DNA from: Aerococcus urinaeequi
GTDB taxonomy: Bacteria > Bacillota > Bacilli > Lactobacillales > Aerococcaceae
Length of the DNA: 64,000 nucleotides
Direction of reading: 5' to 3'
Assembly (NCBI RefSeq): GCF_001543205.1
Contig: NZ_CP014162.1
Coordinates: forward strand, 496,001-560,000
Below are positions 4,823 to 60,505 of the stretch, in pieces. Position 1 is the first letter of the stretch, and each line of letters begins with the position of its first letter. Both the position numbers and the translations under genes were made by a program. Under the pieces are notes generated by a model. The model saw nothing but the letters and a program-made list of their open reading frames with translations. It ran no database searches and was not told the DNA's origin.

Positions 4823-5785
4823 TTATTCTGCCACTTGGATGCTGTCAGGATCGACGCCCAACGCTTCCGCCATGTCTTCATTTACGTATAATTCTAATTC
4901 TTCCGCTTGCTCAATCGGCATGGTCGAAGGATCTTCACCTTCAATTACCCGTGCTGCCATTTCAGCTGTTTGACGGCCCAATTCGTAGTAGTTTAATGAA
5001 TAAGTCGCTAGTCCACCATCTTCCACTTGGTCAATTGATCCAGCAACAACCGGTACTTGGTATTGTTCAGATACCGCACCAACCGTTGACGCTGCCCCTG
5101 CCATGATATTATCTGTTGGAATATATAACAGTTCCGCTTCTGACATCACAGAATTCAAGGCTTGTTGTACATCATTAGTTGAGGTGACCGTACGAATGAC
5201 TGGCGTTTTACCGGCCGCTACAATGGCTGCTTCAGCTTGTTCTGCTTGAATTTGCGAGTTGACCTCACCCGTGTTGTAGATGATGCCAACTTTTTCTGCT
5301 TCAGGTTTAATCGATATTAAGAGCTCAACTTGCTTCTCAACCGGCATCTGATCGCTTGTTCCTGTCACATTTCGGCCCGAACCCTCTAGTGATTCTGCCA
5401 AACCTGCTGTTATAGGGTCAGTTACGGCTGTAAAAAGGAGTGGTTTCTCCTCTTCCGTCACGGCTAGTGCCTGAATAGTTGGCGTTCCGATACCTAAAAC
5501 CAGCTCAGAATTCTTCAACAATTGTCCTGCCATTGGATACAAGTTGGCTTGCTGACCTTGGGCATTCATCCGGTGGTAAACCACATCAACACCCTCTTCA
5601 TAACCCAATTCGGTCATCCCATCAATAAAACCTTGCTCCGCATCATTTAAGGAATTGTGGTCCATAATCGATAAAATACCGATATCTAAAATGCCATTAT
5701 CTTCAGCATTCTCACAGCCAGCCGCAAAAATAGCTAAACTCGCTACTAATGTCACCAAGCCTTTCTTTAAGCTCAATCTTTTCAT
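4823..5785 (-). CDS. ABC transporter substrate-binding lipoprotein (TrpX/COG2984 type)
   Basis: The 320-residue precursor has a basic N-terminus, a hydrophobic stretch and a lipobox IFAAGC with C24 as the lipidated cysteine. It is therefore expected outside the membrane, anchored by lipid. The mature part follows the periplasmic-binding-protein pattern of COG2984: NSLNDAEQGF, FTAVTDPITAGL, a region with YIPTDN and a C-terminal ATYSLNYYELGRQ. Streptococcal relatives bind tryptophan or other aromatic amino acids. GGGGAG lies 6 nt before the ATG. It is first in the operon and directly follows the leader terminator at 5812-5854. Confidence 0.85.
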   Translation of the reverse strand: MKRLSLKKGLVTLVASLAIFAAGCENAEDNGILDIGILSIMDHNSLNDAEQGFIDGMTELGYEEGVDVVYHRMNAQGQQANLYPMAGQLLKNSELVLGIGTPTIQALAVTEEEKPLLFTAVTDPITAGLAESLEGSGRNVTGTSDQMPVEKQVELLISIKPEAEKVGIIYNTGEVNSQIQAEQAEAAIVAAGKTPVIRTVTSTNDVQQALNSVMSEAELLYIPTDNIMAGAASTVGAVSEQYQVPVVAGSIDQVEDGGLATYSLNYYELGRQTAEMAARVIEGEDPSTMPIEQAEELELYVNEDMAEALGVDPDSIQVAE

Positions 5786-5811
5786 TATTTACTCCCCTTT
5801 ACAATCAATCC

Positions 5812-5854
5812 AAAGAAAAAAGCACCTATCCAGATAAAATCTAAATAGGTGCTT
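5812..5854 (-). terminator. Leader terminator (attenuator) of the aromatic-type ABC operon
   Basis: On the minus strand AAGCACCTAT pairs with ATAGGTGCTT, continued by a second helix of 4 bp and a 3-nt loop, then seven T. It lies between the promoter and the first gene, so it must be bypassed for expression. The segment 5833-5843 is also exactly complementary to 5885-5895, giving an alternative pairing. Confidence 0.85.
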
Positions 5855-5884
5855 ATAGCGCTAAAATATCTAGCTATGCCACAA

Positions 5885-6004
5885 TAGATTTTATCTCTAC
5901 GTGGCCACTTGTTACGCAACAAAATGTTTAGCCATCATAGATACGGTTCAGTTGTTTACTGACGTTTGTATCTATGATCTAAAACAGATTTCATAAATAC
6001 AAAC
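5885..6004 (-). promoter_or_regulatory. Competing antiterminator and leader hairpins
   Basis: Four pairing segments are visible on the minus-strand RNA. Segment 1 (6004-5991) pairs with segment 2 (5977-5964) over 14 bp with a single G-U. Segment 2 can instead pair with segment 3 (5944-5934) over 11 perfect bp, closed by an inner TCAGT/ACTGA helix. The two pairings exclude each other. Further on, 5895-5885 is an 11-nt perfect complement of the terminator loop and flanks (5843-5833) and could act as antiterminator. Segment 1 starts at the last base of the leader-peptide stop codon. The complements are seen; the regulatory logic is inferred. Confidence 0.65.
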
Positions 6005-6060
6005 TACCTAAAATAGCTAAAGTAAAAGCGATTATTCGTATGTAGGCTGTTCATTTTCAT
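6004..6060 (-). CDS. Putative aromatic leader peptide
   Basis: An 18-codon ORF on the minus strand encodes MKMNSLHTNNRFYFSYFR and ends in TAG. GAGGGG lies 8 nt before the ATG. Five of the last seven codons are Phe or Tyr (TTT TAC TTT AGC TAT TTT AGG). It sits about 50 nt into the transcript predicted from the promoter at 6118-6146 and immediately before the competing hairpins. Its likely role is not as a protein but as a sensor: ribosome stalling at the aromatic codons would change which hairpin forms. It could also be a chance ORF, but its position, ribosome site and codon content argue against that. Confidence 0.6.
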   Translation of the reverse strand: MKMNSLHTNNRFYFSYFR

Positions 6061-6117
6061 CAATAAAACCCCTCGAATATGGCTGTCATTCATCTAGTTG
6101 CGTCTTTCAATAGCATT

Positions 6118-6146
6118 ATCATAGATTTAATTAAAAAAATTGTCAA
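6118..6146 (-). promoter_or_regulatory. Promoter of the aromatic-type ABC operon
   Basis: Consensus TTGACA (6141-6146), a 17-bp spacer and TATGAT (6118-6123). Predicted transcription starts near 6111, giving a leader of about 325 nt before the first gene. Confidence 0.75.
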
Positions 6147-6278: not shown

Positions 6279-7532
6279 ATGCAAAACAAACGTCCATTTA
6301 CCAGCCTGGCAAAAGTTGAAGAAATTGCTGCTGAAATCCCTACACCATTCCATTTATACGACGAAGCCGGTATCAGAGACCGCTGTCGTCGTCTGAAAAA
6401 AGCTTTCTCTTGGAACCCTAACTTCCATGAATATTTCGCTGTTAAAGCCACACCAAATCCACACGTATTGAAAATTATGCAGGAAGAAGGCATGGGCGTC
6501 GACTGTGCATCTTATACAGAACTTGTATTAGCCGACAAAGTTGGTTTCTCAGGCCACGATATCATGTTCTCATCTAACGTAACGCCAGCAGCTGACTTCA
6601 AAAAAGCAGCTGAACTTGGTGCGATCATTAACTTTGACGACATCACGCATATCGACTTCTTCAAAGAACACGTAGGCGAATTTCCAGAAACTGTTTGTAT
6701 CCGTTACAATCCAGGTGGGACATTCGAAGTTGCGAACGGCATCATGGACAACCCTGGTGACGCCAAATACGGTATGACACCTGAACAAACTCGTCAAGCC
6801 TTCCAAAAATTAGCAGACTATGGCGTGAAAAACATCGGTATCCACTCATTCTTGGTTTCCGGTTCGACATCAAACGAATACTATCCAAAATTAGCACGTA
6901 CATTATTTGAATTAGCGGTTGAGTTAAAAGACCAAACTGATTTAAATATCACCTTCATCAACCTATCAGGTGGTGTTGGGGTTGCTTACAAACCAGAAGA
7001 AACACCAGCAGACATCGACATCATCGGTGACGGCGTACGCCAAGCATACGAAGACATCATGCAACCAGCTGGCTTGGGTGATGTTGCCATCTTTACCGAG
7101 TTAGGTCGTTGGATGTTAGCTGAAAACGGTGGTTTAGTAGCCAAAGTCCTACATGAAAAAATCACTTACAAAGACTACCTAGGATTAGACGCATCTGCCT
7201 CTGACCTATTACGTCCAGCAATGTACGGCGCTTACCACCACATCTCTGTCTTAGGCAAAGAAGACGAAACTGCCGACCAAACATACGATGTAACAGGTGG
7301 TCTATGTGAAAATAATGATAAATTCGCTATCGACCGTCAATTACCAAAAACAAATATTGGCGACTACATCTGGATCCACGATGCCGGAGCCCACGGTGCC
7401 TCAATGGGTTACCAATACAACGCCAAATTGCGTTCAGCAGAAGTCATGTTAAAAGAAGACGGCACATTCAAACAAATCCGTCGCCCAGAAACACCAGAAG
7501 ACTACTTCGCAACAATGGACTTTAATTTCTAA
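6279..7532 (+). CDS. lysA: PLP-dependent decarboxylase, diaminopimelate decarboxylase-like
   Basis: This 417-residue protein belongs to the fold-type III PLP enzymes that decarboxylate diaminopimelate, ornithine or arginine. FAVKATPNP carries the PLP lysine (K56), INLSGGVG is the phosphate loop (228-234) and GGLCENNDKFA contains the catalytic cysteine (C343). Decarboxylation of meso-diaminopimelate to lysine is the most likely reaction. Two motifs are unusual: the usual EPGR is ELGR (274-277), and the usual HxHIGS is HSFLVSG (189-195). Substrate identity is therefore less certain. No other lysine gene is adjacent. AAAGGAG precedes the ATG. Confidence 0.75.
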   Translation: MQNKRPFTSLAKVEEIAAEIPTPFHLYDEAGIRDRCRRLKKAFSWNPNFHEYFAVKATPNPHVLKIMQEEGMGVDCASYTELVLADKVGFSGHDIMFSSNVTPAADFKKAAELGAIINFDDITHIDFFKEHVGEFPETVCIRYNPGGTFEVANGIMDNPGDAKYGMTPEQTRQAFQKLADYGVKNIGIHSFLVSGSTSNEYYPKLARTLFELAVELKDQTDLNITFINLSGGVGVAYKPEETPADIDIIGDGVRQAYEDIMQPAGLGDVAIFTELGRWMLAENGGLVAKVLHEKITYKDYLGLDASASDLLRPAMYGAYHHISVLGKEDETADQTYDVTGGLCENNDKFAIDRQLPKTNIGDYIWIHDAGAHGASMGYQYNAKLRSAEVMLKEDGTFKQIRRPETPEDYFATMDFNF

Positions 7533-60197: not shown

Positions 60198-60505
60198 TTC
60201 CTTTTATAAAAATAAAAAAGCCCCTGCCCTAAGCTCTTCCAATTGGAAAAACCTAGACAGGGACGATTAATTACCGTGTTACCACCCAAATTGTTATAAA
60301 CATTTAGTTTACAACCTCTCTTTGTGCGTTATCGGGCACTAGTCGGCGGAATTTGTACTACTATGTGTAATTCACTATCAATCCTTGACTAGTTTTCACT
60401 CACCACTAGTTCGCTAATTACCAGATTCATCGCTACTCCACCAATTAAATTGGTGCCATAGTGCATTCCTTGCACAAGATTATTTGCGTGTGAAACTTTC
60501 GCTTC
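60198..60505 (-). promoter_or_regulatory. T-box riboswitch leader of tyrS
   Basis: Minus-strand RNA contains the canonical T-box GGGTGGTAACACGG (within 60275-60288), whose TGGT pairs with the free tRNA end, followed by CGTCCCTG and a terminator stem CCCTG..CAGGG with T6 (60214-60263). Upstream is a long stem I with a GAATTACACATAGTAG stretch that can present a TAC (Tyr) specifier. The stretch 60183-60600 has no gene other than this leader and its promoter. Confidence 0.93.

Follow-up and report, generated by a model that had tools for sequence, protein, structure and literature searches.

A probable ribosome-mediated attenuator before a predicted Phe/Tyr ABC importer of Aerococcus urinaeequi, and its likely place in a family of leader RNAs with exchangeable amino acid codons

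Introduction

The amino acid attenuators of proteobacteria (trpL, hisL, pheL, and similar) combine a short ORF, in which codons for the regulated amino acid abound, with mutually exclusive hairpins and a terminator, and those for different amino acids are not known to share sequence. In Firmicutes, amino acid control is usually ascribed to T-boxes, CodY, or TRAP.

Leader-peptide attenuators are nonetheless a known kind in Firmicutes. Listeria Rli60, before ilv, is a ribosome-mediated attenuator for branched-chain amino acids that was first filed as a small RNA (PMC5864092), and the Staphylococcus aureus ilv operon has a leucine-rich attenuator peptide with terminator and antiterminator (PMC5794164); the leader treated here is of the same general kind, with another amino acid and operon, and was set beside both by description only. 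Leader-peptide attenuators of hisS and hisZ have been described in bacilli (PMC2965389). Ashniev et al. (2022) predicted His attenuators in Peptostreptococcaceae, with His codons before the his operon, and the accessible portion of that paper describes them as histidine attenuators alone and does not connect them with aromatic, Trp, Leu, or Ile members (PMC9413887). A candidate uORF with Phe codons and a terminator, uORFC-13-1, precedes aroF in Acholeplasma and environmental sequences, to which it is confined (PMC8632094); its likeness to our leader is again one of description only. Two Rfam families also bear on the locus. RF02863 goes back to sRNA 2410, a 195-nt Enterococcus faecium transcript seen as two transcripts on Northern blots and tabulated as a putative sRNA (PMC5593968), and RF04312, the trpB motif (>900 representatives), was proposed in 2024 to be a strong candidate for a riboswitch, its authors being unable to exclude classic attenuation (PMC11109978).

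We analyzed a leader within a 64,000-nt stretch of the A. urinaeequi genome (NZ_CP014162.1, positions 496,001 to 560,000; hereafter the window). With its short ORF, exclusive hairpins, and terminator before biosynthetic or transport genes, it resembles the proteobacterial attenuators; it differs from them in that a single homologous chassis, conserved in sequence, bears different sensors, and in that it has seven alternative pairings, including one that joins the sensor codons directly to a downstream strand. As far as could be checked, three things are new: the Phe/Tyr class of Lactobacillales, the homologous chassis with swappable sensors, and the reinterpretation of RF02863 and RF04312. The open-access literature returned nothing for the peptide YFSYFR, a trpXYZ leader peptide, or such attenuators in Enterococcus. 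Nor did it yield any account of a Phe/Tyr class, of attenuators with Trp, Leu, or Ile codons on this chassis, or of a common origin.

Results and Discussion

The leader and its operon lie on the minus strand of the window, and the promoter, ribosome site, 18-codon ORF, competing hairpins, and terminator were all found where the original prediction had placed them. A sigma-70 promoter (TTGACA-17 nt-TATGAT, 6118-6146) matches the consensus at 11 of 12 positions, and the ribosome-binding site GAGGGG (6069-6074) lies 8 nt 5′ of the leader ATG at 6060, a comparable site being present in nearly all orthologous leaders. The ORF (6004-6060), identified by its sequence and its conservation across leaders, encodes MKMNSLHTNNRFYFSYFR in 18 codons before the stop; its sensor codons, Phe-Tyr-Phe-Ser-Tyr-Phe (6010-6027), were defined from the codon table of 108 distinct leaders. 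Further downstream, an intrinsic terminator (5812-5854; hairpin 5854-5820 plus U tail) was the one found against 0.3 expected. The leader from 6110 to 5790 folds at -102.2 kcal/mol (z = -7.25 against shuffled sequence). Behind it are an ABC-transporter substrate-binding protein (PF04392, a TrpX paralogue; 4823-5785), a permease (PF02653; 3901-4881), and an ABC ATPase (PF00005; 3082-3885). The intergenic region that holds the leader promoter also precedes a divergent gene on the opposite strand (6279-7532), which encodes a PLP-dependent protein resembling diaminopimelate or ornithine decarboxylases.

A tRNA-binding T-box would be the usual control of such genes in Firmicutes, and this genome has 27 of them; the T-box model that finds these places none over the leader, in line with the original prediction, and neither RF00230 nor any other T-box match appeared there among all Rfam families searched, so that we give this reading practically no credence. 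One of the 27 is a T-box-like match elsewhere in the window (60256-60454, minus strand; 69.3 bits, under the cut-off of 93).

The alignment of orthologous leaders that the original prediction had proposed as a check came out in its favor: the ORF, its ribosome site, and the Phe/Tyr codons are kept while the N-terminal part varies in sequence and in length (17-30 codons in total). We read 118 loci matching RF02863 together with the window (119 loci), and in all 119 an ORF ending approximately in [FY][FY][FY]S[FY][FY]R was present at the same place with a ribosome site (e.g., QLNNFYFSYFR, FFFSYFR, FYFSFFR, YYYGYYR). Among the 108 distinct leaders, four codons of the run encode exclusively Phe or Tyr, with both residues occurring at each position, and 90 leaders have an aromatic residue at a fifth. 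In the right frame, 66 of 74 nonredundant leaders have an ATG preceded by a good ribosome site, compared with 0 of 74 in the other two frames and 11 of 3700 shuffled upstream regions (0.3%). The third positions of the run (TTT, AGC) are nearly frozen, which is explained by pairing with a downstream strand, and they are therefore unusable as a test of coding. The short ORF thus described appears to be kept by selection with codons for the regulated amino acid, and we infer that it is translated.

The strong conservation of the C terminus beside the stop codon would also suit ligand-dependent arrest of the nascent peptide, as in TnaC or SpeFL, the YFSYFR-stop peptide binding Phe or Tyr while inside the exit tunnel, so that the ribosome would stall at termination. 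A [QK]-L-N motif at codons -11 to -9 from the stop, in which four different Leu codons are used, likewise suggests a constraint on the peptide. However, the stop is not fixed, as 9 of the 108 leaders lack it after Arg and continue for three further codons (RSCL, RRCL, RYCL, and similar); Phe and Tyr can stand in for each other; sensors made wholly of Tyr or wholly of Phe, as well as Trp, His, Leu, and Ile sensors, occur on this one chassis (see below); and the invariant nucleotides are accounted for by the pairing of the sensor codons described next. We therefore regard arrest as improbable and prefer a ribosome that waits for charged tRNA. The [QK]-L-N motif recurs in Phe/Tyr, Leu, and His members and is explained by no pairing; a nascent-peptide or spacing role is possible.

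We placed the strands by landmarks: A at the sensor codons, B and C in the hairpin after the stop, then D, E, E′, and the terminator arms. In the window, strand A (sensor codons plus stop; 6004-6023) can pair with D when the ribosome is absent, and C (5964-5975) can pair with either B (5993-6004) or D (GTATCTATGATGGCTAA; 5926-5947), which bears out the competing hairpins of the original prediction. D in turn has A, C, or E as partner, E (GCCACGTAGA; 5895-5906) pairs with D or E′, and E′ (5877-5887) pairs with E or, as an antiterminator, with the 5′ arm of the terminator. Duplex energies between strands of one leader were compared with those after swapping strands between leaders. Same-leader pairing was favored throughout (A:D, z = -8.6; C:D, -8.1; D:E, -5.5; E′:5′ terminator arm, -10.7; B:C, -16.5; E:E′, -7.5; terminator, -24.8), and four control pairings gave z from -0.2 to 0.4. 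Pairing itself helped to locate B, C, E′, and the terminator arms, so B:C, E:E′, and the terminator test the scheme less independently than the other four do.

Covariation in the alignment points the same way, with the counts representing nonindependent events since the leaders are related: C:D is 97.6% paired with 8 double changes (1.2 expected), D:E is 95.0% paired with 7 (1.2 expected), and the nested pair set has 43 (8.2 expected). In the pheA leaders and in two further ones (L118 and L119), B, C, and D are altered jointly and C retains both partners. The seven alternative pairings are thus supported by covariation and would together make a relay. A simple four-strand attenuator is insufficient, D having three partners that are each supported. 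A pairing of E with the 3′ arm of the terminator, seen by eye in the window, was dropped in favor of that between E′ and the 5′ arm, which the polymerase makes earlier and for which the set of leaders gives support.

From the anatomy of the leader we deduce the following steps. Without translation, A:D, B:C, and E:E′ would form along with the terminator, and the operon would be off. When Phe and Tyr are plentiful, the ribosome would reach the stop and cover B, C would take D, E:E′ and the terminator would form, and the operon would again be off. When they are scarce, the ribosome would wait on an aromatic codon, covering A and not B; B:C would then form, the freed D would take E, and the freed E′ would take the 5′ arm of the terminator, giving read-through. 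We infer that the ribosome stalls in vivo and that stalling has this effect on read-through.

Masked folding of leaders that end with the 5′ arm of the terminator, in which nucleotides were hidden through 13 nt past the start of the A-site codon, agrees with these steps, on the understanding that it models an equilibrium, not a race, and assumes the 13-nt footprint. Averaged over 74 leaders, A:D had a probability of 0.66 and D:E of 0.09 with no ribosome; with the ribosome at the third aromatic codon, D:E rose to 0.59 and E′:terminator arm reached 0.58; and with the ribosome at the stop, C:D was 0.92 and D:E 0.14. A ribosome at the last aromatic codon gave an intermediate state. In silico, then, the position of the ribosome appears to decide the fold, and antiterminator and terminator are predicted to be mutually exclusive. 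In 7 of the 74 leaders E′:terminator arm was lower at the stall than at the stop. For the window leader, stalling raised D:E from 0 to 0.41 and E′:terminator arm merely from 0 to 0.12, so that its own antiterminator is weakly predicted.

The window matches RF02863 at 5801-6020 (68.6 bits, gathering cut-off 61, E = 5e-9). The family occurs in 215 of 395 sampled Lactobacillales genomes (E ≤ 0.001; 98 above the cut-off) and in 53 of 80 genera. The Rfam model starts within the leader ORF, which may be why the peptide escaped notice. Discrete short transcripts in E. faecium (PMC5593968) would suit a trans-acting small RNA, the category in which RF02863 was filed; a terminated leader would, however, also look like a short RNA. 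At nearly all loci read the element is moreover co-directional with and upstream of aromatic genes, and the ORF, terminator, and alternative pairings are conserved, which leaves action in trans highly unlikely. RF02863 is very probably a Phe/Tyr attenuator mis-filed as an sRNA, with sRNA_2410 as its member in Enterococcus.

The genes 3′ of the F/Y leaders are the transporter, operons starting with aroE, aroF, or aroC, or pheA, and the shikimate operon among them is aroE-aroF-aroB-aroC. Two F/Y leaders (L313 and L383) stand before binding proteins of the polar amino acid type, which suggests aromatic substrates for these transporters. Genes of other kinds follow the leader MQQSSHTLKSMYFSYFR in Ruoffia (403 aa) and a leader ending in YYFSYFR in a genome of the same family (1109 aa).

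The original prediction of a TrpXYZ-type ABC operon proved right as to its three components, binding protein, permease, and ATPase, but the binding protein is a paralogue of TrpX and not TrpX itself, scoring 273 bits on the TrpX equivalog model NF041285 (cut-off 390). Binding proteins behind F/Y leaders score 273-342 on this model, all below the cut-off, and those behind Trp leaders pass it with 390-475 (390.5-475 where given to a decimal). In a tree of 61 binding proteins, the leader label switches once, on one fully supported branch (100/99). Given the score gap and this single change of label, Phe/Tyr paralogue of TrpXYZ is the most fitting name for the window transporter, with Phe and Tyr as predicted substrates. 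The importer for Phe and Tyr that had been suggested from the leader codons is thus supported by the model scores, the split in the tree, and the F/Y leaders before the shikimate operon and pheA. Two TrpX-like proteins behind Trp leaders are about twice the usual length (649 aa, L277:802-2748; 627 aa, L427:466-2346) and are perhaps fused with a second component.

Two models were used to look for relatives, one (R1) of the leader and one (R2) of the part 3′ of the ORF alone, and gene names were assigned with NCBIfam and Pfam on representatives. R1 returned relatives beyond Lactobacillales and a version with Trp codons (RTWQNWRR, WQSWRR) in genomes of the family that contains Vagococcus. R2 returned the chassis in further families with other sensor codons; since its training set included five Trp, His, and Leu variants, further finds of these three are partly expected, and Ile members were absent from it. 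WQSWRR stands before TrpX, and Trp sensors precede TrpX in 18 of 19 cases, the remaining one also having Trp. Ile codons precede livJ (AIIISIIIR, IIIISIIE, LLVIISIVIR) and threonine ammonia-lyase, ilvA (NIIISIIR). Leu codons (NRVLLLVADLI, NLLLLANLT) precede sodium-dependent LeuT-like transporters, another branch of which follows Tyr-only (AYYCNYYR) and Phe-only (NNFFFSFFR) sensors. His codons precede hisZ (LNHHHHHRS, YYHHHRSKGL) and a polar amino acid-binding protein (QLHHHHHRSKGL). Among the aromatic sensors, FFFSDFR precedes pheA, and YYYFGWFS and YYYFGFFR precede genes that read by eye as transketolase and aminotransferase, respectively.

Over 296 loci the type of sensor matches the class of gene almost without exception. 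The loci share ancestry, and aromatic codons served in part to select them, so the tests on strand D and on RF04312 carry more weight. Strand D binds the sensor strand of its own leader at -15.2 kcal/mol, compared with -10.1 kcal/mol for the sensor strands of other classes (z = -10); that D fits its own sensor implies that the change of codons was accompanied by a change in the partner strand.

The window itself matches RF04312 below the gathering cut-off of 59 (38.2 bits, E = 8e-4), and seven Trp members pass it (L277, L302, L305, L312, L415, L416, and L417). The matches sit 3′ of the leader ORF, which is outside the model. In a sample of 50 matches from one order of Clostridia (E ≤ 1e-4, below the family cut-off), 49 have, 9-33 nt upstream, a ribosome site and a sensor ORF whose codons suit the gene; in the one left over, L454, which is the same place as L334, the sensor ORF was read by eye, making 50 of 50. 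A fixed rule found a sensor ORF in 46 of the 50, compared with 33 of 1718 control windows from the same loci. A conserved structured RNA with a terminator is also what a metabolite riboswitch would be, and the published candidate is a strong one. Against it, the chassis stands before genes of five amino acid classes, each with the corresponding codons in the ORF, and all 50 inspected matches have the sensor ORF, so that we find a riboswitch very unlikely. These matches indicate that the trpB motif is the same RNA chassis, acting as a putative ribosome-mediated attenuator, and the His attenuators of Ashniev et al. (2022), so far as the accessible portion of that paper describes them, are very probably its His members.

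Taken with the conserved ORF and aromatic codons, the covarying pairings, and the aromatic regulon, this re-coding of the sensor upholds the ribosome-mediated attenuator of the original prediction. We are highly confident that the window leader is a transcription attenuator of this type, sensing charged tRNA-Phe and tRNA-Tyr and controlling a Phe/Tyr ABC importer, and very probably a shortage of Phe or Tyr turns the importer on through the leader ORF. With somewhat less assurance, we also think it likely that one homologous chassis in Bacilli and Clostridia serves as a general amino acid sensor, its specificity (Phe/Tyr, Tyr, Phe, Trp, His, Leu, or Ile) having changed by a swap of codons and a compensating change in the paired strand, with the trpB candidate as one face of it.

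If true, the chassis would stand beside the T-box as its counterpart among leader peptides, a second modular device for sensing tRNA charging. It would be common in Enterococcus, Streptococcus, other Lactobacillales, and Peptostreptococcaceae, its members having been entered in Rfam under two unrelated headings, one a small RNA and the other a riboswitch candidate, and elsewhere in a list of His attenuators. The leader codons alone would assign substrate classes to several transporters, including TrpX as opposed to its Phe/Tyr paralogues, and the family would offer naturally re-coded attenuators that allow a direct comparison of specificity, pairing, and gene.

Pattern hits in Flaviramulus, Zixiibacteriota, Sulfurovum, Kapabacteria, Pelagibacteraceae, and some others lacked a proper leader ORF and were set aside as chance. 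In Clostridium paraputrificum (L264), the leader IYFEFSYFS is interrupted after the E hairpin by an apparent group II intron with a reverse transcriptase.
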